From Banduia mediterranea (GTDB lineage Bacteria; Pseudomonadota; Gammaproteobacteria; Nevskiales; Nevskiaceae), in contig NZ_JAVRIC010000001.1 in NCBI RefSeq assembly GCF_031846245.1, forward strand, positions 124,001 through 188,000: DNA of 64,000 bases, in the 5' to 3' direction. Below are positions 3,997-19,120 of this stretch, piece by piece. The notes below the pieces were generated by a model. That model ran no database searches, had not been told where the DNA came from, and saw only the letters and a list, made by a program, of their open reading frames with translations. The stretch's first letter is position 1. Each line of letters begins with the position of its first letter. The position numbers and the translations under genes are program-made.

Positions 3997-6900
3997 AGAA
4001 AACCACAGCCCCCAATGCCCCGATGAGCCGCGCGCAGCGACTGCGCCGCTGGGCCGCGCGCAGCTGGTACATCATCGCGTTCGGATTCAGCGCGATGCTG
4101 GCGCTGAGTCTGGGCTTGACGCTGTGGCTGCTGAGCACCGAGGCCGGCTTGCGCAACGCCCTGGCCGTGGCGCGGCAGTTCACCGGTGGCGCACTGACGG
4201 TCGAGCAGGTCGAGGGCCGCCTGCTCACGCCGATGCATCTGAGCGGCGTCCGCTATCGGTCCGGGGGGCTGGAGGTCGAGGTCGACGAGGTCGATCTGGC
4301 GATGGACCTGTCGCAGATTCTCAGACTCAATGTGGTGGTCCGCACACTGGAAACCTCGGGTGTGCGCGTCAAGCTGGCGCCGCCGAAACCCGAAGAACCG
4401 GAGCCCGAGCCCGGTCAGCCACCCGAGCTGCGTCTGCCGCTCGGTGTTTTCGTCGGCAAGGTCTCGATCGACGATCTGGCCATTCGCAGCGCCGAGGACA
4501 CGGAGCTGTTCGCGCTGGAGCACGGTGACTTGTCCGGCCACTGGAATCGCGACGACATTCGCATCGATACGCTACAACTGGTGCACGAGGAATACGGCGA
4601 AATCGGACTGAGCGCGCAGGCCACGGCATTGGCGGACGGCGTGCTGATCGATGCGCTGGACGTGACCGGGCCGGGCAGGCTTTCGCTCGCCGGCCGCGTG
4701 GGTCTGAGCGCGCAGGCCGACAATGATCTGAACCTGAAATGGGACGATCTGCACTGGCCACCGCAAGGCGACCCCAGCATCACCAGCCCGGATGGCCGGC
4801 TCAGCGTCCAGGGCACCTGGACCGCGCTGAGTTTCGACGCCGACGCCGGGATCGGGCCGCAGGCACGCATCACCGCCCAGGGCGACTGGTCGCCCGACAA
4901 CATCGATGCGCACCTGGCCTGGACCGATCTGGCCGATTTCAAGAACCCGTCGCAGTCGATCTGGCGCAGCAGGCGCGGACGCCTGGACGTGACCGGCGTG
5001 CCCGAGGACTACCGTTTCGAACTGAACGGAGAGCTGGTGGCGCGTGAGCTGCCGGGCAAGATTGCCGGTGAGGGACAGGGCAATCTGCAAGGCCTGCATT
5101 TGCAGCGTTTTGTCCTTGAAGCCCTGCAGGGCTCCCTGACCGCCAAAGGTGATGTCGCCTGGAATCCCGAAGTCAGCGCCCAGCTGAGCCTGCGCGCCCG
5201 CAAGCTGGACCCTTCAGCGATCCTCGCCGGCTGGGCCGGCAGCATCAACGGCGATGTGGACTTCAGCCTGGCGATGCCGCAACAGCAGCCGGACGCCCGC
5301 TTCACGGTGGCGATCGACGACTCGGTGCTGCGCGACAGGCCGCTGTCGCTGCAGGCTCAGGGGCGCTACAGCGGTGATGCGCTCAATCTGCAGCAGGTGG
5401 AGCTGCACAGCGGCCGCACCACATTGACGGCCAGCGGCCGCGCCACGGCGCCCTTCGACCTCAAGGCCGATCTCGACAGCCCCAATCTCGAAGCCTTGTG
5501 GCCGGGGCTGGGCGGTCGCGCGAGCCTGCAGGCCAGCCTGCAGGGCGAGCTGCCGATCCCGGGGCTGCAACTGCGCGGTCAATTCGACGACGTGGCCTAT
5601 CAGGCCTACCGCCTGGCCAGCGCCAGCATCGACGCAGAGGTCTATCCGCAACAGCCGATGACGGTGCGGCTGGATGCCCGCGGCATCGACGTCGGCGAGT
5701 CGATCGACAGTCTAGGCCTGACGCTGGACGGCCCCTTGGCCGATCACCGCCTGCAGCTCGACGTGCTGACCGAAAGAGGCACGGTCTCGATGGCGATGGC
5801 GGGCGGCTACCAGCCGCAGGCGCAGCGCTGGGACGGAAACCTGCAGGCCCTGAGTGTGGCGCCCGGCAAGGCGCCGCCGTGGACGCTCCAGGCGCCGGCG
5901 CCGTTGACGCTGTCGGCGCGCGAAGCCGGGATCGAACGTGCCTGTCTTGGCGGAGACGGCGGCGAAGCCTGCCTGAGCGCGAACTACACCCCGGACGCGA
6001 CGCAGGCGTCCGTCGACCTCAGCCGTTTCGCCCTGGAATACCTGCGCCCCTTGCTGCCCGAGGACTACGCCTTCCGCGGCGAACTCAGCGGGCAGGCCGA
6101 TGTGGCACTTGCCGGCAGCACGCTGCGCAGCGCCAATGTCGATCTCAAGACCACCGAATTGCGTCTACGTGTCGGCGCCACGCTGCTGCAGTTGCAGCCC
6201 AGCACGCTGATCGCGCACGAGAACGAGCAGGGGCTGGATGTCGATACCCGGATCAATCTCAGCGAAGGCTCGATCATCCTGCAGGCACATGCGCAGCCCG
6301 GCGAAGTGCTGGCGCAGCGCGCGCTCGAAGGGAGGCTGGCGATCAACATCCCGGACATGGGCGTTCTGGAGCGGGCTTCGCCGGAAATCGGCGAAGCCAA
6401 GGGGGTCTTGAACGGCGCCTTCGATCTCGGTGGCACGCTGGGGCTGCCGGCCGTGAATGGAAAGCTGGCGGTCGATGACGGTTCCATCCGGTTGGAAACG
6501 CCGGGCATCGTACTGAGCAATCTGCAGGCCGACGTTCGCGGCACCAGCACCGGCCAGGTTCAGCTGGCGGTCTCGGCCGAATCGGGCAAGGGCACCCTGG
6601 AAATCGGCGGCGACATCGATTTCGCGGCGAAGCCACTGGTGGCGGATATCCACATCGGCGGCGACCGATTCCAGGCCGCGAACACGCCGGTCGCCAAGGT
6701 CTGGATCGATCCCGATCTGAACGTGCGGCTCGGCGCCAAGGGGCTCGATATCCGCGGCAGCGTCGGCGTGCCGCAGGCGCTGGTCACGCCGGAGCGCTTC
6801 AAGGGCGGCGGCGCGAGCTCGCCCTCGTCCGACCAGATCATTCTCGAAGGCGATGGCAGCGAGCCCGAACCGGCGCTGCCGATTCGCGCCGAAGTCACCG

Positions 6901-7592
6901 TCAAGCTGGGTGAAAAGGTCCGCTTCGAGGGCTACGGGCTGGAATCGCGCTTCAGTGGCTCCCTGACCGTCATCGAACAGCCCGGAAAGCTCACCTCCGC
7001 ACGCGGCCAGATCAGCATGGTCGATGGCAAATACCAAGCCTATGGCCAGGATCTCACGATCGAGACCGGCCGCCTGATCTACAGCGGCGGACCGGTGGTC
7101 GACCCTGCGCTGCAATTGCGCGCCTCGCGCCAGCCGCGCGACAACATCACCGTGGGCGTGATCGTGCGCGGCACGCTGGGCCAGCCGCAGTTCAGCCTTT
7201 ACTCCGATCCCTCGTCGATGACCCAGCAGGAGCAATTGTCGTGGCTGGTGCTGGGGCGTGGTCTCTCCAGCGGCGGCAGTGACGACGCGGCGCTCGCCAA
7301 CGCGGCGCTGTCGCTGGGCCTCAAGGGTGGGCAATGGTTCGCCGAAAAGATCGGTGGCGGCATCGGTCTGGATGACCTCAGCGTGGGTTCGGAGCCAGGG
7401 CAGACCGCAGATCAGGCGCAGCTCACGATTGGCAAGTACCTGTCACCCAAGCTCTACGTCAGCTATGGCGTCAGCCTGTTCCAGCCCGGCCACACCTTCA
7501 AGCTGCGCTATGACCTCGGCAAGGGTTTCTCGGTCGAAACCGAATCTGGGGTCTACAGCGGTGGTGATCTGCTGTATTCGATCGAGAAATGA
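3993..7592 (+). CDS. tamB: Translocation and assembly module protein TamB
   Basis: 1199 residues. One N-terminal transmembrane segment (about residues 28-52, WYIIAFGFSAMLALSLGLTL) anchors the protein in the inner membrane. A long periplasmic beta-helical region of the AsmA/TamB type follows, ending in the DUF490 domain (about residues 880-1199) that docks on TamA. The conserved C-terminal stretches YSDPSSMTQQEQLSWLVLGR and LYVSYGVSLFQPGHTFKLRY are present. It is translationally coupled to tamA. A proline/glutamate-rich linker (KPEEPEPEPGQPPEL) follows the first repeat region near residue 130. Nothing suggests truncation; E. coli TamB is 1259 residues. Confidence 0.95.
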   Translation: MKKTTAPNAPMSRAQRLRRWAARSWYIIAFGFSAMLALSLGLTLWLLSTEAGLRNALAVARQFTGGALTVEQVEGRLLTPMHLSGVRYRSGGLEVEVDEVDLAMDLSQILRLNVVVRTLETSGVRVKLAPPKPEEPEPEPGQPPELRLPLGVFVGKVSIDDLAIRSAEDTELFALEHGDLSGHWNRDDIRIDTLQLVHEEYGEIGLSAQATALADGVLIDALDVTGPGRLSLAGRVGLSAQADNDLNLKWDDLHWPPQGDPSITSPDGRLSVQGTWTALSFDADAGIGPQARITAQGDWSPDNIDAHLAWTDLADFKNPSQSIWRSRRGRLDVTGVPEDYRFELNGELVARELPGKIAGEGQGNLQGLHLQRFVLEALQGSLTAKGDVAWNPEVSAQLSLRARKLDPSAILAGWAGSINGDVDFSLAMPQQQPDARFTVAIDDSVLRDRPLSLQAQGRYSGDALNLQQVELHSGRTTLTASGRATAPFDLKADLDSPNLEALWPGLGGRASLQASLQGELPIPGLQLRGQFDDVAYQAYRLASASIDAEVYPQQPMTVRLDARGIDVGESIDSLGLTLDGPLADHRLQLDVLTERGTVSMAMAGGYQPQAQRWDGNLQALSVAPGKAPPWTLQAPAPLTLSAREAGIERACLGGDGGEACLSANYTPDATQASVDLSRFALEYLRPLLPEDYAFRGELSGQADVALAGSTLRSANVDLKTTELRLRVGATLLQLQPSTLIAHENEQGLDVDTRINLSEGSIILQAHAQPGEVLAQRALEGRLAINIPDMGVLERASPEIGEAKGVLNGAFDLGGTLGLPAVNGKLAVDDGSIRLETPGIVLSNLQADVRGTSTGQVQLAVSAESGKGTLEIGGDIDFAAKPLVADIHIGGDRFQAANTPVAKVWIDPDLNVRLGAKGLDIRGSVGVPQALVTPERFKGGGASSPSSDQIILEGDGSEPEPALPIRAEVTVKLGEKVRFEGYGLESRFSGSLTVIEQPGKLTSARGQISMVDGKYQAYGQDLTIETGRLIYSGGPVVDPALQLRASRQPRDNITVGVIVRGTLGQPQFSLYSDPSSMTQQEQLSWLVLGRGLSSGGSDDAALANAALSLGLKGGQWFAEKIGGGIGLDDLSVGSEPGQTADQAQLTIGKYLSPKLYVSYGVSLFQPGHTFKLRYDLGKGFSVETESGVYSGGDLLYSIEK

Positions 7593-7878
7593 TGGGATCG
7601 GGAGGCGTGAGGCATTGCCCAGGCGTCAGGTTTTTGAACCTGAAGCGGATGAAGGGACTCGAACGCCTTGCGCGGTGAGTCCGGTTAACCTGATCTCGCG
7701 GACAATCAGTAGTCACGCAGAACTCGGGCGGTGTCCGCCGACGAGGGCATGTATCCCCTATTGCCCCAAGAGCGTCGGCGAAGTGGCTCGGCGCGGCAGG
7801 CAATGCATACGCATTGCCGTGACAAGGTGATTGCATTACCATGCCCGCATCCATCCTGTTTTTGATGCGGAGTGCGCC

Positions 7879-8208
7879 ATGTCAGCCACCCTCGAAGTCG
7901 AATCGACCTTGACCGACCGCTACCAGACCACGGTGCCGGAAACAGTCCGGCGCGTCTTGCGCCTGAGCAAGCGCGACAAGATTCATTACATCATCCGTCC
8001 GAACGGTGAAGTGGTGTTGACCCGCGCTGAAGACGGCGAAGCAGCCGATCCGGTTCTCGGCCAGTTTCTGAGCTACCTCGCGCGCGACCTCGCCAACAGT
8101 CCAGAGCGTCTCCAGGCCGTTGACGCTGGACTGGTCCAGCGGCTCAAGTCGCTCGTCGGCGACATCGAGGTTGATCTCGATGCGCCGCTATCGGCGGACG
8201 ATGAATGA
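7879..8208 (+). CDS. prlF: Antitoxin PrlF (type II TA, AbrB/SpoVT fold)
   Basis: 109 residues. The N-terminal swapped-hairpin AbrB-type DNA-binding domain is recognisable: ATLEVESTLTDRYQTTVPET, then VRRVLRLSKRDKIHYII. The acidic C-terminus (GDIEVDLDAPLSADDE) is the usual toxin-binding part. The ATG at 7879 is chosen because GCGGAG lies 7 bases upstream and the product then matches E. coli PrlF (111 residues). An in-frame ATG at 7831 would add a non-conserved leader. The last four bases overlap the yhaV start (ATGA), the classic antitoxin-first arrangement. The module is expected to autorepress. It sits at the left edge of the accessory region after tamB. Confidence 0.9.
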   Translation: MSATLEVESTLTDRYQTTVPETVRRVLRLSKRDKIHYIIRPNGEVVLTRAEDGEAADPVLGQFLSYLARDLANSPERLQAVDAGLVQRLKSLVGDIEVDLDAPLSADDE

Positions 8209-8711
8209 CCGGCGGCAAGCCGACACCGCTGGTCATTCATGGCTGGACCGTCTTCGCCCATCCGCTGTTTCTTGCGCAGCTTGAAGCGCTCGCGGACAAG
8301 GTCGAGGCACTGAAGCAAAAGGACCCGGTCGGGTACGTCAAGAAGAACGCCAATAAGCGCTTGGCGGCCATCACCAAGCTGGCGTTTGAGGTCATCCCGC
8401 AAGACCCGACGCAGCCGGAGTACCGGCAAGGCGGCACGCTCGGCGACGATCACAAGCACTGGTTCCGGGCGAAGTTCTTTCAGCAGTATCGGCTGTTCTT
8501 TCGGTATCACGCCCCGAGCAAGATGATCGTGCTCGCCTGGGTCAACGACGAAGACACCAAGCGTGCCTACGAGAGCGGCGACGACGCCTACCGGGTGTTC
8601 CGCAAAATGCTCGAAGCCGGCCATCCACCGGATGACTGGAATCAGTTGCTGAGTGAAGCGCGAGCTGAGCTCAAGCGTCTGCAGCAGTTCACGTCCACGG
8701 GCGCGAGGTAG
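8205..8711 (+). CDS. yhaV: Toxin YhaV (ribosome-dependent RNase, RelE-like)
   Basis: 168 residues, slightly longer than E. coli YhaV (154). Family hallmarks are visible: MTGGKPTPLVIHGWTVFAHP at the N-terminus, KRLAAITKLAFEVIPQDPT, HKHWFRAKFFQQYRLFFRY, and IVLAWVNDEDTKRAYESGDD near residue 110. YhaV cleaves mRNA and is neutralised by PrlF. It is coupled to prlF by a 4-base overlap. The C-terminal extension (SEARAELKRLQQFTSTGAR) resembles that of other proteobacterial YhaV proteins. The gene appears intact. Confidence 0.9.
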   Translation: MTGGKPTPLVIHGWTVFAHPLFLAQLEALADKVEALKQKDPVGYVKKNANKRLAAITKLAFEVIPQDPTQPEYRQGGTLGDDHKHWFRAKFFQQYRLFFRYHAPSKMIVLAWVNDEDTKRAYESGDDAYRVFRKMLEAGHPPDDWNQLLSEARAELKRLQQFTSTGAR

Positions 8712-8727
8712 CCGTCGCCATAGACAG

Positions 8728-8864
8728 TCAAAGCGTCCCGTCGCGGACCATCTGATCGAACGCGCTGCGCGCGTTCTGCTGCGCCTTCTGGATGATCTCC
8801 GGCTTTATCAAGGCCGCGATCTGGCGCGTCAGCATCACGTCCTCCAGCAGCGTGAGAGAAGGTC
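8728..8864 (-). pseudogene. C-terminal fragment of an unrecognised gene, cut by a mobile repeat
   Basis: Reading leftwards from the edge of the first miniature element gives an open frame of about 45 codons, LLEDVMLTRQIAALIKPEII continuing QKAQQNARSAFDQMVRDGTL and stopping at 8728. It has a real-protein composition but no start and no recognisable domain. The upstream part was lost where the AAGGTCGGGGTC repeats begin at 8859. I cannot name the parent gene. Confidence 0.35.
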
Positions 8865-9211
8865 GGGGTCAAAGAAGGTCGGGGTCAGGAAGGTCGGGGT
8901 CAGGTCTTGCGCCTTGACGCAGCCCGCCGATCCACACCTCGCGCGATCCGGCTTACCGTCGAGTAGTCGAGTAGTGCTACCCGAAGTGCACACCGATCTA
9001 CGGAAGTTGTCGGTGTCCGCTCTCGTAGGCGTCGCGACCTTCGTCATTGAGGAAGATTGCTTGACGGGCATTGCCGCGCGCCATCACATGATGGATCGCG
9101 CCGGGGAATTCGATACGCAGAGGGCGGGCCATGCGGGGAACGTAGCGAAGCCAAAGAAATTTGGCAAGGAACAAGACCTGACCCCGACGTTCGACGTTCC
9201 GGACCCCGACG
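8859..9211 (-). repeat. RAYT-derived miniature element, copy 1 (core 8890-9191)
   Basis: A 302-bp core is bounded by inverted repeats AAGGTCGGGGTCAGGTCTTG (8890-8909) and CAAGACCTGACCCCGACGTT (9172-9191), complementary except at one base. Inside, on the minus strand from 9132, lies the N-terminus of a REP-associated tyrosine transposase (MARPLRIEFPGAIHHVMARG...) joined after about 38 residues to what resembles its C-terminal helix-turn-helix. The HUH catalytic centre is absent. The left end is extended by two further partial units (8859-8870 and 8875-8889) and the right end by one more (near 9200-9211). An 8-bp tandem duplication (TCGAGTAG twice, 8959-8974) breaks the frame, and this copy also has an extra stop. 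Confidence 0.85.
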
Positions 9212-9219
9212 TTCCGTTG

Positions 9220-9303
9220 GCGAATGGTCGCGCCGGTATCGTGATTTCTGGCGGCGCCTACTTCACTCAGACCGGTAACGTGCTGATACTGGACGCGGAA
9301 TAG
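9220..9303 (+). pseudogene. C-terminal fragment of an unrecognised protein
   Basis: Directly right of miniature element 1 a frame reads LANGRAGIVISGGAYFTQTG then NVLILDAE and a stop (TAG ending at 9303). It looks like the end of a beta-rich protein whose body has been lost, and is open only back into the repeat. No RBS or start belongs to it. It is probably debris captured between repeats. No family is recognised. Confidence 0.3.
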
Positions 9304-9322
9304 ACAAACATGCCTGCAGTTC

Positions 9323-11620
9323 CTAAATCTCGTACGCTGTACCGAGGTTTTGTGGCAACAACAAATCGTCGGTGTTCAGATCGCCATAGAGCGCCCGAAT
9401 TGAATCATTGTGCTGTCCGAGGTCGGGACCTTTGGTGCATACGGCTGAACCCCCTCGCCGAAAACGAAAAGGGAAACCCGGCAGGCGAACAGCATCTACG
9501 GTCTGTAGCCAATCCCGCGCGGCCAGATGTTCGTCTTGAGACAAATCTTGTGCGTTGAACACAGCGCCAGCCGCGATTCCTTCAGCCTGCAATATCCGCA
9601 TGGCACTGCGGCAATCCTGGCGGCAGGTCCACGTTCCTATTAATGCGTCGATCTCGTCGTGCCGAGTGCTCCGACCGGACACCGTAGCGTAGCGACCGTC
9701 CTGCTCCAGTTCCTTGCCCCCTATGATGCCGGCCAGTTTTCGCCATTGCGCATTGCTCGTAATGCATATGGTTACCCACCGGTCCTTCCCGGAGCAGGGA
9801 TAGCAGCCCTGCGGCGCATAAAATGCGTGGCGGTTACCCACCAAGAGCGGCTCGGTTCCGCTCGACGACGCCATGGCTATGTATTCGCCAATGAGCCAGC
9901 AAGAAGTTTCCGTCTCGGACAGATCGATCCACTGGCCGACCGTGGTGGACTGGCGATGGAATAGCGCCGTGAGCGCGGCACAGAGTCCGAATATGCCATT
10001 CAGGACATCCATCTCGCGTATGCGATAGCGTGGGCCGCCCCTGTCATAGGCGGTGAGCGCCTGCATCCCGCTAATCGCCTCTATGGTGCCGCCATATCCA
10101 GCATAAGCGGCGTATGGACCGGTAGCGCCAAATGCTGACATGGACAGCATGATGATGTCCGGTTTGATGTCCCGCAAGGTATCGTAGGCGAGCCCCAGCC
10201 GCTGCATCACACCGGGACGAGAATTTTCCAGTACGAGATCCGTCGCCGCTACCAGACGCCGACAGAACTCATAGTGATCAGGCCGCTTAAGATCAAGCGT
10301 TAATGATTTCTTCCCACGATGCAACTGCCAAAACCGTGGAAATCCATTGATCTTCTGCTTATATCCGCCGCGCATCGAGTCGACTCGGCCGGGATACTCC
10401 ACCTTGATGACCTCTGCGCCGAAGTCCGCCATCACTCGGGCAGCGTGCGGCCCTGCCCAGTCGTGAGAAAAATCCAGAATTCGTAAGCCTTGCAGAGGAG
10501 CGGCGACTGGTTGTTCTGTGCCATGAGCGGGCACAGGAACGGGAACGGGCACCGCTTGCTCGTGCATGCCCGCATTGCGCCAACGTGATACTTGGCTGCG
10601 AAAAGGCGCGCCGGGAATGCGGCATTTACGGCCGTCCGGTAACTGCGCATCTTGGAAGAAGTCACGCGCTTCATGCTGCGGGTCTGCGAGGACTTCACAT
10701 ACAGAAGCCAAGGGTGACCATGCCAGCCCGCGCTCCTGTCCGAGTAAGAACAACTGCTTTTTTGCCTTGCTCGCAAGCCAGGGCCGGAGCAGGGCTTCGA
10801 AAGCCTTGCGATTCACCAGCCTCTGTTCAACATCAGCGAAGCGGGGCTGGAGCAGCTCTGGAACATCGAACTGCTCGATGGCTCCAACCCAGTTGCGTAC
10901 TGGTCCACCAACGATTGCAACTTCACCATCCGCGCAGGGGTACGTACGCCACGGCACCATTCCATGCTCGTCGCCGTTGCGACGGGGCACGGCGCCGCTA
11001 TGAAGGTGGTCGGCAATCGCGGTCTCGTAGTTCTCCAACGCCGATTCATGCACTGACAGGTCAATGAAATCACCGATCCCATCGCGGCCGCGGCGAAGCA
11101 GCGCCATCAGGCTAGCGGCATAGGCATTGAGACCACCGGACAATTCACAGATCCTCGGCCGGGCATTTAGCGGTTCGCGCTGACCATGGCCAGTGCTGTG
11201 CATTAGGCCACTCATCGCATACAGCGTGATGTCCTCAGCCTGATAGTGCTGGTAAGGCCCGCTCAGGCCGAACGAAGAGATTCGGCAAGTGATCAGACGC
11301 GGATGACGCTGAGCGAGCGCTGCGGCAGCCAATCCGAACGGATCACTGGCTTCAACGGCTCGGGCATCGATCAGCAGGTCAACGGATTCCAGCAACCTAT
11401 GCAGAACATCCGCTGCCTCGGGCACCTGCCAGTCAAAATCCAGTCGGCCCTGTTCGATCTCAAACCACAGCATCTCCTCAGGCGAGTGTAGCGCCGGCTC
11501 GAAGCCGGGCGTGGCCATCGCTTGAACCGTGGCACCGAAGCCGCGCAAGAGCTTGCTGCAGTAAGCAGCGGCAACCCGGCTGCCAATTCGCAGCACGCGG
11601 ATATGGTTCAATGTCCCCAT
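9323..11620 (-). CDS. Tandem-domain CaiB/BaiF-type CoA-transferase
   Basis: 765 residues made of two consecutive family III CoA-transferase (CaiB/BaiF) domains, about residues 1-365 and 385-765, joined by a PVPVPVPAHG linker. Domain 2 has the full signature: LRILDFSHDWAGPHAARVMA, FGAEVIKVEYPGRVDSMRGG, then REMDVLNGIFGLCAALTALF with the expected catalytic Asp. Domain 1 has Glu there (ICELSGGLNAYAASLMALLR), so it may be inactive. Such enzymes move CoA between carboxylic acids; the substrate is unknown. The ATG at 11620 is used; a GTG at 11623 lies inside the IS4 inverted repeat. Base composition is visibly more A+T-rich than the flanking core genes, suggesting transfer. The native promoter appears to have been replaced by the IS element. 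Confidence 0.8.
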   Translation of the reverse strand: MGTLNHIRVLRIGSRVAAAYCSKLLRGFGATVQAMATPGFEPALHSPEEMLWFEIEQGRLDFDWQVPEAADVLHRLLESVDLLIDARAVEASDPFGLAAAALAQRHPRLITCRISSFGLSGPYQHYQAEDITLYAMSGLMHSTGHGQREPLNARPRICELSGGLNAYAASLMALLRRGRDGIGDFIDLSVHESALENYETAIADHLHSGAVPRRNGDEHGMVPWRTYPCADGEVAIVGGPVRNWVGAIEQFDVPELLQPRFADVEQRLVNRKAFEALLRPWLASKAKKQLFLLGQERGLAWSPLASVCEVLADPQHEARDFFQDAQLPDGRKCRIPGAPFRSQVSRWRNAGMHEQAVPVPVPVPAHGTEQPVAAPLQGLRILDFSHDWAGPHAARVMADFGAEVIKVEYPGRVDSMRGGYKQKINGFPRFWQLHRGKKSLTLDLKRPDHYEFCRRLVAATDLVLENSRPGVMQRLGLAYDTLRDIKPDIIMLSMSAFGATGPYAAYAGYGGTIEAISGMQALTAYDRGGPRYRIREMDVLNGIFGLCAALTALFHRQSTTVGQWIDLSETETSCWLIGEYIAMASSSGTEPLLVGNRHAFYAPQGCYPCSGKDRWVTICITSNAQWRKLAGIIGGKELEQDGRYATVSGRSTRHDEIDALIGTWTCRQDCRSAMRILQAEGIAAGAVFNAQDLSQDEHLAARDWLQTVDAVRLPGFPFRFRRGGSAVCTKGPDLGQHNDSIRALYGDLNTDDLLLPQNLGTAYEI

Positions 11621-12466
11621 CACTGCTGTCCAGTTAATACCCGAATAGATTCAACTGGTTGCTGGTCTCGTCCAGTTCGGAATTGTGGCGATGCCCAAGA
11701 AATGCCTGCTGGATGGGCATTTTCTCGAACAGGGTGAGCGAGAAAATCTGTAGCAAAGTGTAGAGCGAGGCATCCAGGTCGAGCCGCTTCTTGACGATGG
11801 CGACGAGCACATAGACCGACACGGCGATCCAGATCTGAGTCTTCACTGCATTCTCGGAGTTCCCGAGAAACCGCTTGATCCGAAGGTGTTGCTTGATCCA
11901 CTTGAAGAACAACTCGACTTGCCAGCGCTGCTTGTACAGCGAGCAGATGGTCGATGCGGGAAAGGTGAACTGGTTGGTCAGAAAGATCAGCGTCTTGTCG
12001 GTTTCGGGGTCTTTGAAGCGGACGCGGCGCAGATGATCGGGATAATCCTTGGCCGAGTATTGACCATCGAGCGCGATGGTCTGGTCGCAGACAATTCCTG
12101 CGATACGATCCGTGGGCGCCGAATAGACACGATGGAAATCCATATTGGACTTGGCTCGTGTCACGAAGAAGCTGCCAGCCCGGTGCATGACATGCAAGCG
12201 GGAGAAGTCCACGTAGCCCCAATCCATCACGTAAATGGCGCCGGCCTCCAGAACCAGCAGGTCGAGCACATTGACGTCGTGAAGCTTGCCGTTGGACATG
12301 AGTTGGGAAAACAGGGTCTTGCCAGAATTCATCGCCGCCTCCGGAGGAATTTCCGGCAGGCTGCATCAATACGGCGTTCAAATTGGCACCACCCAGTTTC
12401 ACGTCTAACCTCTTGTCAGAACAGCAGATTTATCGAAGATGACTATCAGTTAACTGGACAGCAGTG
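11621..12466 (-). mobile_element. IS4-family element with internal deletion
   Basis: The element is delimited by perfect 17-bp terminal inverted repeats, CACTGCTGTCCAGTTAA (11621-11637) and its complement (12450-12466), total 846 bp. Full relatives encode a transposase of roughly 380 residues, so several hundred bases are missing. No matching target-site duplication flanks it (CCCCAT on the left, AAAACC on the right), implying rearrangement after insertion. It abuts the start codon of the CoA-transferase gene on one side and an IS66 fragment on the other. Confidence 0.85.
11634..12332 (-). pseudogene. IS4-family (DUF4372 type) transposase, internally deleted
   Basis: 232 residues, in frame throughout. 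The first dozen (MNSGKTLFSQLM) match the start of the DUF4372 N-terminal domain, but the next residues (SNGKLHDVNVLDLLVLEAGA) belong to the middle of the DDE domain, so roughly 150-180 residues are missing in frame. The second catalytic Asp (YVMDWGYVDF) and the Y-R-E-K signature (YKQRWQVELFFKWIKQHLRI) remain; the first catalytic Asp is in the lost part. It should therefore be transposition-dead. The stop codon lies inside the left inverted repeat. Confidence 0.85.
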
Positions 12467-12477
12467 AAAACCCGTAA

Positions 12478-12639
12478 CTACTCACCCGTTTCAGCGTAGA
12501 GCTGACCGGAAAGCGCGAATTGGATAGCGACGAGGGGATTGTATCCGCGGTTGGCCATGGTCTGCAGGTAGCTGGAGATGCGGCAATAGGCTTGGGCGTA
12601 CGCCCGGTTGCGAAAGCAACCGGAGACTTTCTGCTCAAG
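12478..12639 (-). pseudogene. IS66-family transposase, C-terminal fragment
   Basis: The minus strand reads ELQKVSGCFRNRAYAQAYCR and then ISSYLQTMANRGYNPLVAIQ to a stop at 12478. KVSGCFR followed by a Tyr/Cys/Arg-rich helix is the signature of the IS66 TnpC C-terminal element. Only about 53 residues survive. The upstream side is cut by the second miniature element and the downstream side by the IS4-type element, so at least two later insertions or deletions removed the rest. Confidence 0.7.
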
Positions 12640-12650
12640 GTCGGGGCCAC

Positions 12651-12946
12651 AAGGTCGGGGTCAGGTCTTGCGCCTTGACGCAGCCCGCCAATCCACACCT
12701 CGCGCGATCCGGCTTACCGTCGAGTAGTCGAGTAGTGCAACCCGAAGTGCGCACCGATCTGCGGAAGTTGTCGGTATCCGCTCTCGTAGGCGTCGCGATC
12801 TTCGTCATTGAGGAAGATTGCTTGACGGGCATTGCCGCGCGCCATCACATGATGGATCGCGCCGGGAAATTCGATACGCAGAGGGCGGGCCATGCGGGGA
12901 ACGTAGCGAAGCCAAAGAAATTTGGCAAGGAACAAGACCTGACCCC
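12651..12946 (-). repeat. RAYT-derived miniature element, copy 2
   Basis: The left repeat AAGGTCGGGGTCAGGTCTTG is at 12651-12670; a diverged extra unit AAGGTCGGGGCCAC precedes it at 12637. The right repeat CAAGACCTGACCCC is at 12933-12946 and has lost its last few bases. The interior is nearly identical to copy 1. This copy has the longest open relic frame: from ATG at 12893 to TAA at 12714, reading MARPLRIEFPGAIHHVMARG, NARQAIFLNDEDRDAYESGY and RQLPQIGAHFGLHYSTTRR. The last segment resembles the RAYT C-terminal helix-turn-helix, so the N- and C-ends of the transposase gene are fused with the catalytic middle missing. Confidence 0.85.
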
Positions 12947-13085
12947 CAGGGCTGCGTGTTGGCGTTGCACCGCGCATCGATGCACGGTAGTTTCCGAGGC
13001 ACACACTCGGCGGGGGCCGTCGTGATCATCCAACTTCATTCCAGCTTTCTCAGCTTCGGTTACCTCGCGGCGTCAAGAGCAGCTC

Positions 13086-13163
13086 GGCCAACCAGGCGCT
13101 CCAGCCGACGTATTTGCCTCCGCTTCGCTACGGCAAATCCGCGGCTGAGCTAGGGCGTTGGGC
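13086..13163 (+). other. Integron attC site, complete (site A)
   Basis: All parts of an attC are present at canonical spacing: R'' GGCCAAC (13086-13092), 9 bases, L'' CAGCCG (13102-13107), an inner stem ATTTGCC/GGCAAAT (13112-13118 / 13132-13138), L' CGGCTG (13142-13147), a 10-base spacer and R' GTTGGGC (13157-13163). R'' and R' pair except at one base. The site marks the end of one cassette and, after its G/TT cut point, the start of the cassette carrying the gene at 13222. The 139 bases between the upstream miniature element and this site hold no gene I can recognise. Confidence 0.8.
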
Positions 13164-13221
13164 TTATAAAATCTCCCGTCCGTGCCGAGCGGTTCTCAGC
13201 ACATTTTTAGGAGTTTCTACC

Positions 13222-13548
13222 ATGAAGCGTTTATCAGTTTTTCTTGCAGCCGCAGTAATGTCCGGTTCTGTTTTCGCCGATACCTACGTTCAGGGTTACA
13301 CCAAGAAGGACGGCACGTATGTGCAGGGTCACTACCGCAGCAGCCCTGACCAAAATCGATACAACAATCGCAGTTCACAAAGTTTCGGCGGCACACAGCG
13401 CGACGAATTCAGTAATGGCGGAGGCGCCACGAACAAGCGCAACTCCAGCTACGGCGCTTACGACAACGACCGTGACGGCCTCTACAACAGTTACGACCCT
13501 AAGCCAGAGTCAAAAAGCAACTGCTATCCAGGCACTTACGGTTGCTAA
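13222..13548 (+). CDS. Cassette-borne secreted small protein
   Basis: 108 residues. The ATG at 13222 has TAGGAG 8 bases upstream and gives a clear signal peptide (MKRLSVFLAAAVMSGSVFA, cut before DTY). The mature protein is short, Gly/Ser/Asn-rich and begins TYVQGYTKKDGTYVQGHYRS, then SPDQNRYNNRSSQSFGGTQR. This motif, a YV-G-Y-DGTYV-HYRS-PD-NN pattern, recurs in many small exported proteobacterial proteins of unknown function. Two C-terminal cysteines (NCYPGTYGC) could form a disulfide. It lies immediately after attC site A and is followed by the start of another attC, the standard layout of an integron gene cassette. It is A+T-richer than core genes. Confidence 0.75.
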   Translation: MKRLSVFLAAAVMSGSVFADTYVQGYTKKDGTYVQGHYRSSPDQNRYNNRSSQSFGGTQRDEFSNGGGATNKRNSSYGAYDNDRDGLYNSYDPKPESKSNCYPGTYGC

Positions 13549-13554
13549 AAAGCC

Positions 13555-13581
13555 GCCCAACGAATAGGGATAGATTAAAGT
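13555..13581 (+). other. attC site start, truncated (site B)
   Basis: R'' GCCCAAC (13555-13561) lies six bases after the cassette gene stop, exactly where an attC should begin, and would pair perfectly with the GTTGGGC core of site A. The expected L'' box does not follow: after about 20 bases the palindromic element at 13583 begins, and no R' core reappears on its far side. The site looks overwritten. Confidence 0.5.
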
Positions 13582-13582
13582 G

Positions 13583-13654
13583 AAAAGGGGACAGATTTAT
13601 TTTTTGGATTCAACCTGCCTACCAGCTAACCAGAAAATAAATCTGTTCCCTTTT
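13583..13654. repeat. 72-bp palindromic element, copy 1
   Basis: Inverted arms start AAAAGGGGACAGATTTATTT (13583) and end with the complement at 13634-13654 (21-bp arms, one mismatch, a T in place of C in the right arm). A roughly 30-base centre, TTGGATTCAACCTGCCTACC and onwards, separates them. An almost identical copy lies at 14157-14228, so the two copies bracket the lipoprotein gene between them. Its size and shape fit a miniature element moved by a hairpin-recognising transposase; no such enzyme is encoded here. Confidence 0.8.
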
Positions 13655-13677
13655 TTCGAGCAAAGGGGAGTTGTCTT

Positions 13678-14124
13678 ATGTTGAGAAAAATCGCTTCGGT
13701 AGTGCTGCTGGCTTTGCTGGCTGGCTGCGCCACACACAACGTGCAGCTTTACGGACCCATTGACACTTCGAATAAAACCGTCACGGTTCCACCTGGCTCA
13801 GAAGGATTGAAGGGCAAATTGAAACAGGCATTGGCAAACGACGGTTGGAAACTCATCGTCTATAGGGGCCCTTCGGTCACAGAGGGTGAGGTTGGGGAAA
13901 AAACCAAAATCGAGCACTACGACACATTCAATTCAAGATATAGGCTTATCACCTCCTCTTACCAGTTCGATCTATGCATCAATGGCCTCACACCAGCCAT
14001 TAAGTACGACATATCGTTCATTGATAACAAGTCGGGGGCGGAGGTTTTCACGATTAATGGTCGTGGTTGCGAACCCGATGCAGTAGAGAAATTCATGAAT
14101 GCACTGCGAGGCAAAGACAAATAA
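13678..14124 (+). CDS. Small lipoprotein of unknown function
   Basis: 148 residues. The signal peptide MLRKIASVVLLALLAGC has an LLAGC lipobox with the lipidated Cys at 17. AAGGGGAG lies about 7 bases before the ATG. The mature domain (about residues 35-148) contains GSEGLKGKLKQALANDGWKL and YRLITSSYQFDLCINGLTPA and ends VEKFMNALRGKDK. Two internal cysteines are present. I recognise no family. It is markedly A+T-rich for this genome and lies between two copies of the 72-bp palindrome, consistent with acquired DNA. A GCATAAC heptamer at 14126-14132 just after the stop may be the R'' remnant of another attC, which would make this a second cassette. Confidence 0.7.
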   Translation: MLRKIASVVLLALLAGCATHNVQLYGPIDTSNKTVTVPPGSEGLKGKLKQALANDGWKLIVYRGPSVTEGEVGEKTKIEHYDTFNSRYRLITSSYQFDLCINGLTPAIKYDISFIDNKSGAEVFTINGRGCEPDAVEKFMNALRGKDK

Positions 14125-14156
14125 TGCATAACATTGAAGTGAAAAGGGGACCGGTG

Positions 14157-14228
14157 AAAAGGGGACAGATTTATTTTTTGGATTCAACCTGCCTACCAGC
14201 TAACCAGAAAATAAATCTGTCCCCTTTT
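14157..14228. repeat. 72-bp palindromic element, copy 2
   Basis: The 21-bp arms (14157-14177 and 14208-14228) are perfectly complementary. The centre is the same as in copy 1. A partial extra left end (GTGAAAAGGGGACCG, from about 14140) precedes it, the same kind of end-duplication seen at the 302-bp elements. It is followed within six bases by a solitary right end of the 302-bp family. Confidence 0.8.
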
Positions 14229-14233
14229 TTTCT

Positions 14234-14271
14234 AAAGAAATTTGGCAAGGAACAAGACCTGACCCTGACGT
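14234..14271 (-). repeat. Solitary right end of the 302-bp element family
   Basis: AAAGAAATTTGGCAAGGAAC followed by AAGACCTGACCCTGACGT matches the right terminus of the 302-bp elements with a single mismatch. No left end or interior accompanies it. It is either the scar of a deletion or an end-only insertion. Confidence 0.7.
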
Positions 14272-14302
14272 CCGATTCGGCCGACGCGCGAGAGACCGCG
14301 AC

Positions 14303-14461
14303 CTACTTCTTGCCCTTCTCAGCCTCCTTCCGAATCGTCCCGATCTTTTTATCGGAGCGCGTATCCCGACCCGTATTCGGATCGCGGATTGTACCGGGGG
14401 GAAGGCCGTGCTTCTTCTCGTGACTACCCACGGTCTGATCACTACGATCTCTTCTTGTCAT
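14303..14461 (-). CDS. Small basic protein of unknown function
   Basis: 52 residues, rich in Lys/Arg: MTRRDRSDQTVGSHEKKHGL, then PPGTIRDPNTGRDTRSDKKI and GTIRKEAEKGKK. The ATG at 14461 is preferred because GAGG lies 8 bases upstream; the same frame could be read from further upstream without a ribosome-binding site. It is short, but the coding frame is clean and has nucleic-acid-binding-like composition. No family is recognised. It lies between repeat debris and the next cassette, on the opposite strand to the cassette genes. Confidence 0.45.
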   Translation of the reverse strand: MTRRDRSDQTVGSHEKKHGLPPGTIRDPNTGRDTRSDKKIGTIRKEAEKGKK

Positions 14462-14617
14462 GACGCATGCCTCATAGGTTGGTTCAAATGGGCCGCTTCG
14501 TAGGGGAAACCAAGCGGACCGTGGCGTCAAGTGTGCATCATTCGCACCTCCGACGAGACAGATAGTATCTCCAAATTCTATGATAGTCTAGGACGATAGA
14601 TTTCAACGGAGAATGAC

Positions 14618-14773
14618 GTGCCTCGGAAGCCAGGAGATGGGAACTACACCCTGCGGGAGAAGCGGCTGATCGCCGAGAAGAAGGCGCTCGAAGCGGACAA
14701 CAAGGCGAAGGACGCTAAGCTGAAGGCCAAGGATGCCAGGATCGCGGAGTTACGAGCCAAACTTGGCGGGTAA
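14618..14773 (+). CDS. 51-residue charged coiled-coil protein (probable cassette gene)
   Basis: A GTG start at 14618 with CGGAGA 5 bases upstream opens MPRKPGDGNYTLREKRLIAE, then KKALEADNKAKDAKLKAKDA and RIAELRAKLGG, stop at 14773. Almost the whole protein is a Lys/Glu/Ala heptad helix, so a dimeric coiled coil is likely. An overlapping ATG at 14613 is out of frame and soon stops. The gene is followed 16 bases later by an attC R'' box, the normal position in an integron cassette. Function unknown. Confidence 0.55.
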   Translation: MPRKPGDGNYTLREKRLIAEKKALEADNKAKDAKLKAKDARIAELRAKLGG

Positions 14774-14789
14774 CTGCTCTCTCAGTGAC

Positions 14790-14826
14790 GCCCAACGCCG
14801 AGCTTCAGCCGCGGCTGCGCTCGCAA
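14790..14826 (+). other. attC site, truncated at its right core (site C)
   Basis: R'' GCCCAAC (14790-14796), 9 bases, then CAGCCG (14806-14811) directly followed by CGGCTG (14812-14817): the outer L boxes are present at canonical spacing but the variable hairpin between them is gone. At the position where R' GTTGGGC should stand (about 14827) the sequence is already the left end of miniature element copy 3. The site marks the end of the 51-residue-protein cassette. Confidence 0.6.
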
Positions 14827-15126
14827 GGTCGGGGTCAGGTCTTGCGCCTTGACGCAGCCCGCCGATCCACACCTCGCGCGATCCGGCTTACCGTCGAGTA
14901 GTCGAGTAGTGCGACCCGAAGTGCGCACCGATCTGCGGAAGTTGTCGGTGTCCGCTCTCGTAGGCGTCGCGATCTTCGTCATTGAGGAAGATTGCTTGAC
15001 GGGCATTGCCGCGCGCCATCACATGATGGATCGCGCCGAGGAATTCGATGCGTAGAGGACGGGCCATCCGGGGAACGTAGCGAAGCCAAAGAAATTTGGC
15101 AAGGAACAAGACCTGACCCCGACGTT
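14825..15126 (-). repeat. RAYT-derived miniature element, copy 3
   Basis: Full-length 302 bp, the same size as the copy 1 core. Left repeat AAGGTCGGGGTCAGGTCTTG (14825-14844), right repeat CAAGACCTGACCCCGACGTT (15107-15126). The relic transposase frame starts at ATG 15067 on the minus strand and carries the shared TCGAGTAG duplication. It has landed at the right core of attC site C and also abuts the gene fragment at 15127. Confidence 0.88.
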
Positions 15127-15552
15127 CTTGATTTCCTCCCGAAGATCATCGGCCATACGGTGTGCAAGCCACTCATTCGCTTCAAGGCGGTCGTAGTGGT
15201 CTTCCGGCGCGTGATGAAATTCTTTTCGGAAATCCTTCATTGCATCTTCGCGAATCTCCGGAATACGACTGTGCAGCCTCGACGCGTAATCAACAGAGAC
15301 ATTTCCAGTGTCCGTATACATGTCCCTTAAATTACCGCTGAATTGACCCTGCAACCCACCGCTTGGGCCGGCCATTGGATTGCCTATGCTCAAGCCGAGA
15401 TTGGCGCCGACGCTGCCGCCCAATTCTTTGGTCCGCTGTTCCCCGTCCGTCGCCTCCAAATGAACACCTCGCCCTGCAGTGATCGCCTGACTCGCATTCA
15501 CGATTAGGGAGGACATCGTCTCATCGTCTTTCTCGCCCGTCATGATGTCGGC
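15127..15552 (-). pseudogene. Gene fragment trapped between two miniature elements
   Basis: An open minus-strand frame of about 140 codons fills the space between copies 3 and 4 exactly. It includes MTGEKDDETMSSLIVNASQA, ELGGSVGANLGLSIGNPMAG, VSVDYASRLHSRIPEIREDA and EWLAHRMADDLREEIKN. Gly/Ser-rich loops followed by long helices resemble the C-terminal region of conjugative mating-pair stabilisation proteins of TraG type, but the match is from memory and weak. No start or ribosome-binding site is visible, and the frame only extends further by running through repeat sequence. It is probably a fragment of a larger gene. Confidence 0.4.
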
Positions 15553-15806
15553 AAGGTCGGGGTCAGGTCTTGCGCCTTGACGCAGCCCGCCGATCCACAC
15601 CTCGCGCGATCCGGCTTACCGTCGAGTAGTCGAGTAGTGCGACCCGAAGTGCGCACCGATCTGCGGAAGTTGTCGGTGTCCGCTCTCGTAGGCGTCGCGA
15701 TCTTCGTCATTGAGGAAGATTGCTTGACGGGCATTGCCGCGCGCCATCACATGATGGATCGCGCCGGGGAATTCGATACGCAGAGGGCGGGCCATGCGGG
15801 GGAACG
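15553..15806 (-). repeat. RAYT-derived miniature element, copy 4 (right end missing)
   Basis: The left repeat is intact (15553-15572) and the interior, including the relic start codon at 15795, is nearly identical to copy 3. The sequence breaks off just past the ATGCGGGG at the relic start. The last 50 or so bases, including the right repeat, are replaced by the start of the 109-bp relative. Confidence 0.8.
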
Positions 15807-15814
15807 CACAAGTG

Positions 15815-15923
15815 GGGTCAGGTCTTGCGCTTTGACGAGGGTCGCCGATCAATACCTTGAATAGTGCAGACCGGAGAGCGCGCCGATCTGAGAAAAGGTG
15901 CGGCAAGGAACAAGACCTGACCC
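15815..15923. repeat. 109-bp relative of the miniature elements
   Basis: Perfect 13-bp ends GGGTCAGGTCTTG (15815-15827) and CAAGACCTGACCC (15911-15923) enclose a diverged interior. Blocks such as CGCCGATC, AGTGCAGACCGGAG and GCGCCGATCTGAG line up with the left third of the 302-bp elements, after which the sequence jumps to the common right end. It is therefore a further internal deletion of a related but older RAYT source. Confidence 0.75.
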
Positions 15924-15996
15924 GAATGGCGCTTACTTCCAATCAACCGGGCGCGCGACGAACGCCGACAGTTCAGGAGAAACCTCGGCTCACCGT

Positions 15997-18465
15997 TCAA
16001 GCAACATGCTGTTGCCGAGCACCCGTGACCTTGTGCGCATCCACGGCCGCAATGCGGCGCAGGTATTCAGGTGAGAAATCGTCGGTCTGGATGGCGTCGA
16101 GGCGCGCCTTTTCGTAGTCGTCCAGCACCTGGGACTGCTCGGCGGTGATTCGGCCGTTGGCAATCGCGTTCTTCAGGCGTTCTGCCTGGGTGTCTCCCGG
16201 CGCCTCGCCGTCTTGCGCGGCGCTGTCGAGCAGGTCGGTGACGGCGGCGGCTTCGTGCAGCAGCGTGAAGGCGCGTTCCATGCGGCCAACGGGGTCGTCT
16301 GCGCCGCCGGTGGTGTAGACCGATTGGCTGAGGCGATCGCGCAGCGCGCTCGGCAGCATTATGTGTTCGGCCAGTTCTGCGGTCAGCGTATCGGACGGCT
16401 CGCGATGCGAACGGCCCAAAGGGAACACCAGGCGGCGCATCACGCCGGCGGCAAGGCGGTTCGGGAAGTTGGCGAAGAAACCTTCGAACGCGAGTCCGAT
16501 CTGCGACAGGCAGTGCTGCAAGGCCCAGTGGGCATAGGGCAGGTCTTCTTCCGGCTCGCCTTCGTCACGGTGGTACTTGAGCACGGCGGAGGCCATGTAC
16601 AGGTGCGACAACACGTCGCCGAGGCGCGCGGACAGGCGTTCCTTGCGCTTGAGGTCTCCGCCCAGGAGACCCATGGTCACGTCGGAGACGATGGCGAGCG
16701 AGGCGGACATCCGTTCGAGCTGCCGGTAGTACGGGGCCAGGGGACCGCTCAGCGGTGCGCACGCAAGGCCGGCGCCGCTGAGGCCCAGGCTGAGTGCGCG
16801 CACGGCACGATTGATCGAATAGCCCAGGTGCGCCCATAACGTCTGGTCGAAGGCTTCGAGGTCGTCGTGTCTTGAGGCTTCCATTTCCTTCAGCACGTAG
16901 GGATGGCAGCGGATTGCACCCTGGCCGAAGATCATCAGATTGCGGACCAGGATGTTGGCGCCTTCCACGGTGATCGCCACCGGCGCGGCCTGGTAGGCGG
17001 AGGCCAGGTAGTTGCGCGGGCCCTGCTGGATGCCGCGCCCGCCGTGCACGTCCATCGCGTCGGCGACGATGCGGCGCATCAGTTCGGTCATGTGGTATTT
17101 GGCGATCGCGGTGACCACGCCCGGCGCGCAATGGTCCACCGCAGAACTGGTGAGCACGCGCGTGGCTTCCATCAGGTAGGTCAGCCCGGCGATGCGGCCG
17201 GTGGCTTCCTGCACGCCCTCGAACTTGCCCACGGGCAGGCGAAACTGGGTTCGAATGCCTGCGTAGGCTCCGGTCATGCGGTAGGCGGTCTGCGCGGTTG
17301 CGGCGGCCAGTGCCGGCAGCGAGATGCCGCGACCGGCGGACAGACATTCCACCAGCATGCGCCAACCGCGACCGGCATTGGCGGGGCCGCCAATGATCCA
17401 GTCCAGCGGCACGAACACGTCCTTGCCGAAGATCGGGCCGTTCATGAAGGCGGAGCCGGGGTAGTGGCGGCGGCCAATCTCGACGCCAGGGTGGTTCGCC
17501 GGCACCAGCACGCAGGTGATGCCGTAGTCCACCCGCGACTTGTCGCCAAGCAGGCCTTCCGGATCGCCGAGTTTGAAAGCCAGGCCGACCACGGTGGCAA
17601 TCGGCGCCAGCGTGATCCAGCGCTTGGAGAAGCTGAGGCGGATGCCGAGGGTGCGGCGGCCCTCGAGTTCGCCGTAGCAAACCTCGCCATGGTCCGGCAT
17701 GGCGGTGGCGTCGGAGCCGGCTTCGGGTCCGGTCAGGCCGAGGCAGGGAATCTCCCGGCCGGACACCAGCCCCGGCAGCCATTGTTTCTTCTGCTCGGGC
17801 GTGCCATAGATCATCAGCAGTTCGCCCGGCCCCAGGGAATTCGGAACCATGACGGTGACAGCCACGGCGATCGAGCGCGTGGCGATGCGCGTGACCACTT
17901 CCGATTGGGCGCGCGCGGAGAAACCGAGCCCGCCGTGCTTCTTGTCGATCAGCATCGCCAGAAAGCGCTGTTCGCGGATGTAGTCCATGACCGGAGCCGG
18001 AATCTCGCGCAGTTCGAAGTCGATCTGCCAGTCGTTGATCATTGCGCACAGCGTGGCGCACTGATTGTCGAGGAAGGCCTGTTCTTCTTCGGTGTATTCG
18101 GTACGCGGAAAGTCGAGCAACTGCTTCCAGTCGGGGCGGCCGCGAAACATCTCGGTTTCCCACCAGGTGTCGCCGGCCTCCAGTGCATCGCGCTCGGTCT
18201 GCGACATCTCGGGCATCACGGCCTTGAAGCGTTCGAACAGACCGCGCGTGAGCACGCCGCGTCGCAGCGGAACAATGTTGAACACCAGCAACAACAGCAG
18301 TGGCACACCCAGTATCGCGGCGCCCACGGTACCGAGCAGACCGGTGACCAGCAGCGCGGCATAGGCCACGGTGACCACGGCGGTCCAGACCAGCAAGGGC
18401 GCGCCGATGTAGGCCAGCGTCCAACTCAGCGCCAGCACCACCAGCGTGACGGTAAGGCTCAACAT
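15997..18465 (-). CDS. fadE: Acyl-CoA dehydrogenase FadE
   Basis: 822 residues, close to E. coli FadE (814). The hydrophobic N-terminus (about residues 1-70) holds membrane segments. The acyl-CoA dehydrogenase core follows (GGLGFSARAQSEVVTRIATR near 195, PCLGLTGPEAGSDATAMPDH near 250, DAMDVHGGRGIQQGPRNYLA near 480). A C-terminal DUF1974 domain completes the protein. It catalyses the first, FAD-dependent step of fatty-acid beta-oxidation at the inner membrane. The TetR regulator gene lies 22 bases upstream on the same strand and is probably co-transcribed or autoregulatory. Confidence 0.95.
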   Translation of the reverse strand: MLSLTVTLVVLALSWTLAYIGAPLLVWTAVVTVAYAALLVTGLLGTVGAAILGVPLLLLLVFNIVPLRRGVLTRGLFERFKAVMPEMSQTERDALEAGDTWWETEMFRGRPDWKQLLDFPRTEYTEEEQAFLDNQCATLCAMINDWQIDFELREIPAPVMDYIREQRFLAMLIDKKHGGLGFSARAQSEVVTRIATRSIAVAVTVMVPNSLGPGELLMIYGTPEQKKQWLPGLVSGREIPCLGLTGPEAGSDATAMPDHGEVCYGELEGRRTLGIRLSFSKRWITLAPIATVVGLAFKLGDPEGLLGDKSRVDYGITCVLVPANHPGVEIGRRHYPGSAFMNGPIFGKDVFVPLDWIIGGPANAGRGWRMLVECLSAGRGISLPALAAATAQTAYRMTGAYAGIRTQFRLPVGKFEGVQEATGRIAGLTYLMEATRVLTSSAVDHCAPGVVTAIAKYHMTELMRRIVADAMDVHGGRGIQQGPRNYLASAYQAAPVAITVEGANILVRNLMIFGQGAIRCHPYVLKEMEASRHDDLEAFDQTLWAHLGYSINRAVRALSLGLSGAGLACAPLSGPLAPYYRQLERMSASLAIVSDVTMGLLGGDLKRKERLSARLGDVLSHLYMASAVLKYHRDEGEPEEDLPYAHWALQHCLSQIGLAFEGFFANFPNRLAAGVMRRLVFPLGRSHREPSDTLTAELAEHIMLPSALRDRLSQSVYTTGGADDPVGRMERAFTLLHEAAAVTDLLDSAAQDGEAPGDTQAERLKNAIANGRITAEQSQVLDDYEKARLDAIQTDDFSPEYLRRIAAVDAHKVTGARQQHVA

Positions 18466-18487
18466 CCCGATTCCTCCGGATTGGAGA

Positions 18488-19120
18488 TTAAGGCCCAGGC
18501 GGTGCCGCGTGCTTGTCTGCGGGGCCCGGAACGCGTGCGGACTCGATATCGCGAGCCCGCGGAATCAGCGTTTTGATCATCAACTTGAAATACTGGCTGA
18601 ATTCTGCGCCTTCGGGAAAGGTTTCCGGTGCATCGCGGTGCACCTGCTGATTACCGATGAAGGTGGCGTAGGCGAAGGTGGACCACAGCTTCGCCTCGGG
18701 CTCGCCGAGTCCGAGCGCCTGATAGCACTCGTGCAGGTAGTTCATGCGGCGCGCCGAAACACGACGCACGACGGTGCCGACATGCGCGTGGTCCGAGGCG
18801 GCGGCCAGCGCCAGATAGAGCCGCCCGGCACGATGGCTGGCATTGGCCCGCTTGAACAATTTGACGATGCGGTCATAGGGATCCGACGCATCGGCAACCG
18901 CGATGATCATATCGTCGGTTTCCTGACGCTCCCACAGTTCCAGGGCGCGGCGCATCAGCGCTTCGCGACTCGGGAAATGCCAATAGAAACTGCCCTTGGT
19001 CACGCCCAGCGAACGGGCCAGCGGTTCGACCGCCACGGCCTCGATCCCGCTGGACGCCACGGCCTCAAGCGCGGCAGCGGACCAGTCATCGGCGGTGAGA
19101 TTTTGTCGGGGAGTGTCCAT
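18488..19120 (-). CDS. TetR-family transcriptional regulator
   Basis: 210 residues. The N-terminal helix-turn-helix (about residues 10-60) is typical: AALEAVASSGIEAVAVEPLA, RSLGVTKGSFYWHFPSREAL. The helical C-terminus is the ligand-binding half; a ligand cannot be predicted. Its place directly upstream of fadE suggests control of fatty-acid oxidation, with an acyl-CoA as a plausible effector (inference). The 239-base gap to the divergent DUF1329 gene probably contains the operator for both directions. The tail (residues 190-210) is Pro/Ala-rich. Confidence 0.85.
   Translation of the reverse strand: MDTPRQNLTADDWSAAALEAVASSGIEAVAVEPLARSLGVTKGSFYWHFPSREALMRRALELWERQETDDMIIAVADASDPYDRIVKLFKRANASHRAGRLYLALAAASDHAHVGTVVRRVSARRMNYLHECYQALGLGEPEAKLWSTFAYATFIGNQQVHRDAPETFPEGAEFSQYFKLMIKTLIPRARDIESARVPGPADKHAAPPGP

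Follow-up and report, generated by a model that had tools for sequence, protein, structure and literature searches.

The Locus and Its Accessory Surroundings

The features considered here lie in a window of 64,000 nucleotides, that is, the whole stretch of Banduia mediterranea DNA that was analyzed. Those around the lipoprotein gene are as follows (coordinates are positions in the window).

7614..15935, no strand: 8.3-kb stretch unlike the congener, between flanks about 95% identical
12657..12946, no strand: full copy of a second TIRYT MITE family (ends GGGGTCAGGTCTTG)
13084..13165, + strand: integron attC site, homologous to array sites of relatives and to the genome's own integron on contig C10
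13222..13548, + strand: small secreted-protein gene upstream of the lipoprotein gene, no family match
13555..13563, + strand: possible truncated attC start GCCCAACGA, 6 nt after the secreted-protein stop codon; putative, the word alone not being significant
13580..13656, no strand: TIR dimer (hairpin), copy 1; 25-nt arms, 22-nt loop
13678..14124, + strand: lipoprotein gene present once in the genome; product of 148 aa without a family match
14133..14153, + strand: extra partial TIR end, ATTGAAGTGAAAAGGGGAC followed by CG, immediately 5' of copy 2
14154..14230, no strand: TIR dimer (hairpin), copy 2, one base unlike copy 1
14234..14271, - strand: single end of the second TIRYT MITE family, adjoining hairpin copy 2 on the right
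14787..14824, - strand: possible truncated attC in the opposite orientation, cut by a MITE; putative
14831..15120, no strand: full copy of the second TIRYT MITE family

The flanks of the 8.3-kb stretch (5339-7613 and 15936-18784) are about 95% identical to the chromosome of the sole congener. Between them, at 8.9-15.9 kb of the window, the second MITE family is represented by four elements, whole or in pieces; it is about 290 bp long, with the start of a Y1 transposase gene fused to the region for the C terminus. Its end, GGGGTCAGGTCTTG, occurs 51 times exactly in the genome. Besides the two full copies listed above, TIRYT-type copies or pieces of this family are seen at 8896-9185 and, rearranged, at 15559-15924, and a YhaV toxin gene (8205-8711; PF11663, E 1.2e-62) adjoins a MITE copy. 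The attC site and the second-family MITE copies together mark the stretch as a collecting site for small elements.

The lipoprotein gene encodes a signal peptide and a lipobox, LLAGC (the latter read by eye). It has 47.9% GC against 63.9% in the window, in agreement with the original prediction of an A+T-rich gene, and its neighbors, namely the small secreted-protein gene, IS and MITE pieces, and gene fragments, fit the expectation that it is unrelated to the genes around it. Searches of the 148-aa product against the Pfam and NCBIfam profiles gave no match; a single-sequence structure model (mean pLDDT 45) was set aside. Homologs, the gene itself included, were found in 15 of 85 genomes of the order and in 3 of 369 genomes of the class sample. 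The congener has a homolog with 61% identity on a different contig (C39), where an end of the second MITE family lies downstream in place of the hairpin. Since the chromosomal flanks of the locus are about 95% identical in the two genomes, these sequence comparisons suggest that the lipoprotein gene was probably acquired or exchanged separately. It is thus an accessory, foreign-looking gene in a patchwork region of the chromosome, and the idea of a foreign gene at a site of repeated insertion holds in view of its low GC content, the difference from the congener, the attC site, and the MITEs.

Could the lipoprotein gene be an integron cassette, with the hairpins inserted into its attC sites? 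The attC site at 13084-13165 is real: it has matches in 10 of the 31 genomes searched, among them the arrays of relatives and the genome's own integron on contig C10, which encodes an integron integrase (TIGR02249, 471.8 bits) and carries attC sites. A short attC-like word also follows the upstream secreted-protein gene on its 3' side. Against this, GCCCAACG is about as frequent in the window as would be expected from base composition, no attC was recognized after position 14124, that is, 3' of the lipoprotein gene, and the attC query had no match on contig C39 of the congener, the home of the lipoprotein homolog. We therefore regard a cassette origin as unlikely.

Structure of the Paired Palindromes

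Two near-identical palindromes of 72 nt (13583-13654 and 14157-14228) had been predicted around the lipoprotein gene, and this was confirmed. They differ by a single mismatch (T at 13647, C in the other copy), and the identity reaches 3 nt further to the left and 2 nt further to the right, giving 77 nt in total. The copies are non-autonomous and stand in direct orientation with a start-to-start spacing of 574 nt, the whole bracket measuring 646 bp. Each is an imperfect palindrome with arms that are 92% and 96% complementary, respectively, and compared with shuffled sequences both fold strongly as single-stranded DNA (z = -6.2 and -7.8). The 17-nt half-site GGGGACAGATTTATTTT, with at most three mismatches allowed, occurs four times in the window against 0.05 expected.

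Folded as RNA, the hairpins would also have high stability (-35.4 and -37.3 kcal/mol, with z about -8), and copy 2 starts 29 nt past the lipoprotein stop codon and is followed by a T run. This would suit a role as two-way terminators or mRNA-stabilizing hairpins, retained around the gene whatever their origin. We consider such a role rather improbable, because copy 1 is part of the 5' leader, and a terminator at this place would silence the gene. Further, a terminator scan with a loop limit of 8 nt missed the hairpins themselves, and it gave 3 terminator-like sites against 1.7 by shuffling.

The Palindromes as Probable TIR Dimers of Y1/HuH Transposase Elements

The half-site is not confined to the bracket. 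With at most two mismatches, GGGGACAGATTTATTTT occurs 15 times in the 3.83-Mb genome: four times in the bracket (three plus one variant) and 11 times on contig C6, within 7.5 kb. The same contig carries an intact transposase gene (L030:12614-13318), whose product matches the Y1_Tnp profile (PF01797, E 3.7e-12) and contains an HVH motif (TNHVHLL, read by eye). It scores 76.1 bits against the family of REP-associated tyrosine transposases (NF047646), slightly below the cut-off of 80; the score falls just short of the NCBIfam threshold and to that extent would count against the account given below. One end lies 53 nt 5' of the start codon, and no second end was found 3' of the gene at up to three mismatches. 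Since the end is present on the 5' side only, this transposase gene may not move itself. Neither a second copy of the whole bracket nor other copies of its loop sequence were found in the genome.

The half-sites on C6 sit among toxin-antitoxin genes (PIN, Phd/YefM, YoeB, and HigB). The region L030:4400-13318 (G000:C6) looks like a toxin-antitoxin island in which the GGGGACAGATTTATTTT end is repeated between modules and the intact transposase gene stands at the end; a pilin gene divides the ends into two groups, each mostly of one orientation.

With the C6 transposase as tblastn query, relatives turned up in 9 of the 122 records searched; 7 of these 9 belong to the hairpin-bearing stretches described below. 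Ten transposase loci were examined, the one on C6 included. In five of them (L112, L124, L147, L173, and L183), clean inverted ends flank the gene at a distance of 773-919 bp from each other; these intact two-ended elements come from Pseudomonas, a Nitrospirae MAG, and the congener. In the remaining loci, the ends point outward (L143), hairpins lie on both sides (L172), the gene is truncated (L169), no end is close to the transposase gene (L182), or a single end is present (L030, on C6).

According to Di Nocera and colleagues (PMC3733652), TIRYT elements have the motif GGGGWSAS, TIRtrons carry TIRYT genes, and the TIRs also occur as dimers; PMC6006769 likewise describes TIRs occurring as dimers. 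The motif fits the palindromes: copy 2 has GGGGACAG in each of its arms, and copy 1 has it in one arm and GGGAACAG in the other. As the same 17-nt ends bound intact Y1/HuH elements and bare dimers are widespread, the palindromes are very probably bare TIR pairs from a TIRYT-type element with a Y1/HuH tyrosine transposase, that is, MITE- or REPIN-like dimers without coding capacity. The original suggestion of miniature elements is thereby upheld and given a family, whose ends also bound intact transposase genes.

Distribution in Other Genomes and Relation to Known Elements

The exact hairpin pattern, which allows loops of 10-40 nt, detected bare head-to-head TIR dimers in several phyla. The stretches number at least 119, a lower bound from a non-random sample in which many come from the same MAGs. 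By record titles, they include Gammaproteobacteria, Nitrospirae, SAR324, Desulfobacterales, Planctomycetota, Aerophobetes, and Latescibacterota. These stretches contain at least 128 hairpins, with loops of 10-40 nt that mostly differ from each other; seven loop sequences recur. The bracket dimers thus belong to a widespread and already known family, and the odd bracket is resolved into a known element type that shows the reach of one transposase end across phyla.

As in the TIRtrons and TIRYT elements covered by the accessible part of PMC3733652, a Y1 gene lies between GGGGWSAS inverted repeats and TIR dimers occur away from the gene. That part of the text does not contain these 17-nt ends; here, the dimers span several phyla with a variable loop and an unchanged end, the constancy of the end being imposed by the exact search. 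With the REPINs and BIMEs mobilized by RAYTs, as described in PMC6006769, the dimers share inverted end repeats, a short spacer, a hairpin, and a related transposase. Unlike GTAG REPs and REPINs, they have no GTAG or GGAG foot within 13580-13656, and they form one long simple stem, whereas REPINs and BIMEs consist of two REP hairpins. REPINs are also far more numerous (hundreds; the GTAG REP criterion is over about 100 per genome), compared with two dimers and 15 half-sites here.

Does the Bracket Move or Delimit a Gene?

The bracket had been predicted to be a composite transposable unit. Specifically, the TIR dimers might serve as ends between which the lipoprotein gene travels as cargo, or the 574-bp interval might be excised by the transposase. 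Near-identical copies with the same loop indeed stand on both sides of one foreign gene, as the two element copies of a composite transposon do, and pairs with the same or similar loops enclose small accessory genes in four of the at least 119 stretches (L119, L145, L172, and L173). In contrast to a composite transposon, the two direct copies are non-autonomous and the interval shows no sign of moving; the gene is single-copy in this genome. The occurrence of the gene with the same palindromes elsewhere was checked at the 14 homologous loci outside this genome (2.1-3.4 kb examined for each), and none had a half-site within about 1.5 kb at up to three mismatches. Plasmids gave no match and viral contigs no stretches for the gene with hairpins. 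Among the stretches listed, the dimers in other genomes are mostly single, with differing loops and varied, unrelated genes alongside, the very pattern that had been named in advance as speaking against a composite unit. Finally, toxin-antitoxin genes are not enriched near the hairpins, as judged from 90 near and 114 far small ORFs (at most 170 aa, excluding ORFs that overlap a half-site) and the 25 commonest of 58 and of 49 families, respectively. We give very little credence to a composite unit.

A related idea is that TIR dimers border small accessory modules, a pair with the same loop delimiting a unit that is exchanged or lost, in the manner of an integrase-free cassette system. Candidate modules are the lipoprotein gene, immunity-type genes next to Rhs toxins in Pseudomonas, and the toxin-antitoxin island on C6. 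In a profile scan of the Pseudomonas loci, SUKH domains were found in 5 and RHS in 3 of 51 ORFs, hand-picked from the 122 in 14 stretches (49 of the 59 near ORFs and 2 long far ones); as the scan had no matched control, we treat this association as a lead only. If such bordering were true, it would provide a simple non-integron cassette route, but we hold it to be very unlikely.

By eye, Pseudomonas hairpins beside immunity-type and Rhs genes were commoner than expected (L069, L071, L115, L119, L122, L145, L159, and L173).

Possible Origin of the Bracket

For the TIR dimers, we suggest the following history. The C6 transposase, or a past one, would have recognized the ends and copied or moved a dimer as single-stranded DNA. 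The second copy in the bracket could be a local copy of the first, as both have the same 22-nt loop. Both dimers would have inserted into an accessory stretch that was tolerant and already patchy, with its remnants of integron cassettes and its other MITEs, which would explain why the lipoprotein gene lies between them. Given the length and identity of the direct copies, loss of 574 bp by recombination between them is possible.

The flanks of the dimers offer clues to insertion. The consensus AAAA precedes GGGGACAG in most of 250 flanks among the hairpins listed. Complementarity of at least 8 nt extends beyond the hairpin in 34 of 125 cases, compared with 1.1 expected from shuffled flanks (3 of the 128 hairpins, too near a contig end, were dropped); the shared AAAA/TTTT accounts for part of it. 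Of 256 flanks, 27 have an additional GGGGAC within 40 nt outside the hairpin, where random places in the same stretches would give 2.7. Often the flank and GGGGAC are repeated together as a short tandem. Bracket copy 2 has the additional GGGGAC as well, and its doubled end (14133..14153) is seen again at C6 and in the congener. Judging by the extra GGGGAC and the palindromic flanks, the elements may insert into palindromes, or the palindromes may grow. Testable clues to how such elements insert are the outer end, which is doubled repeatedly, and the flanks, in which the palindrome continues. In L078, L127, and L144, some TIR dimers seemingly occupy the center of other palindromes that read GTAGGAGCG or similar.
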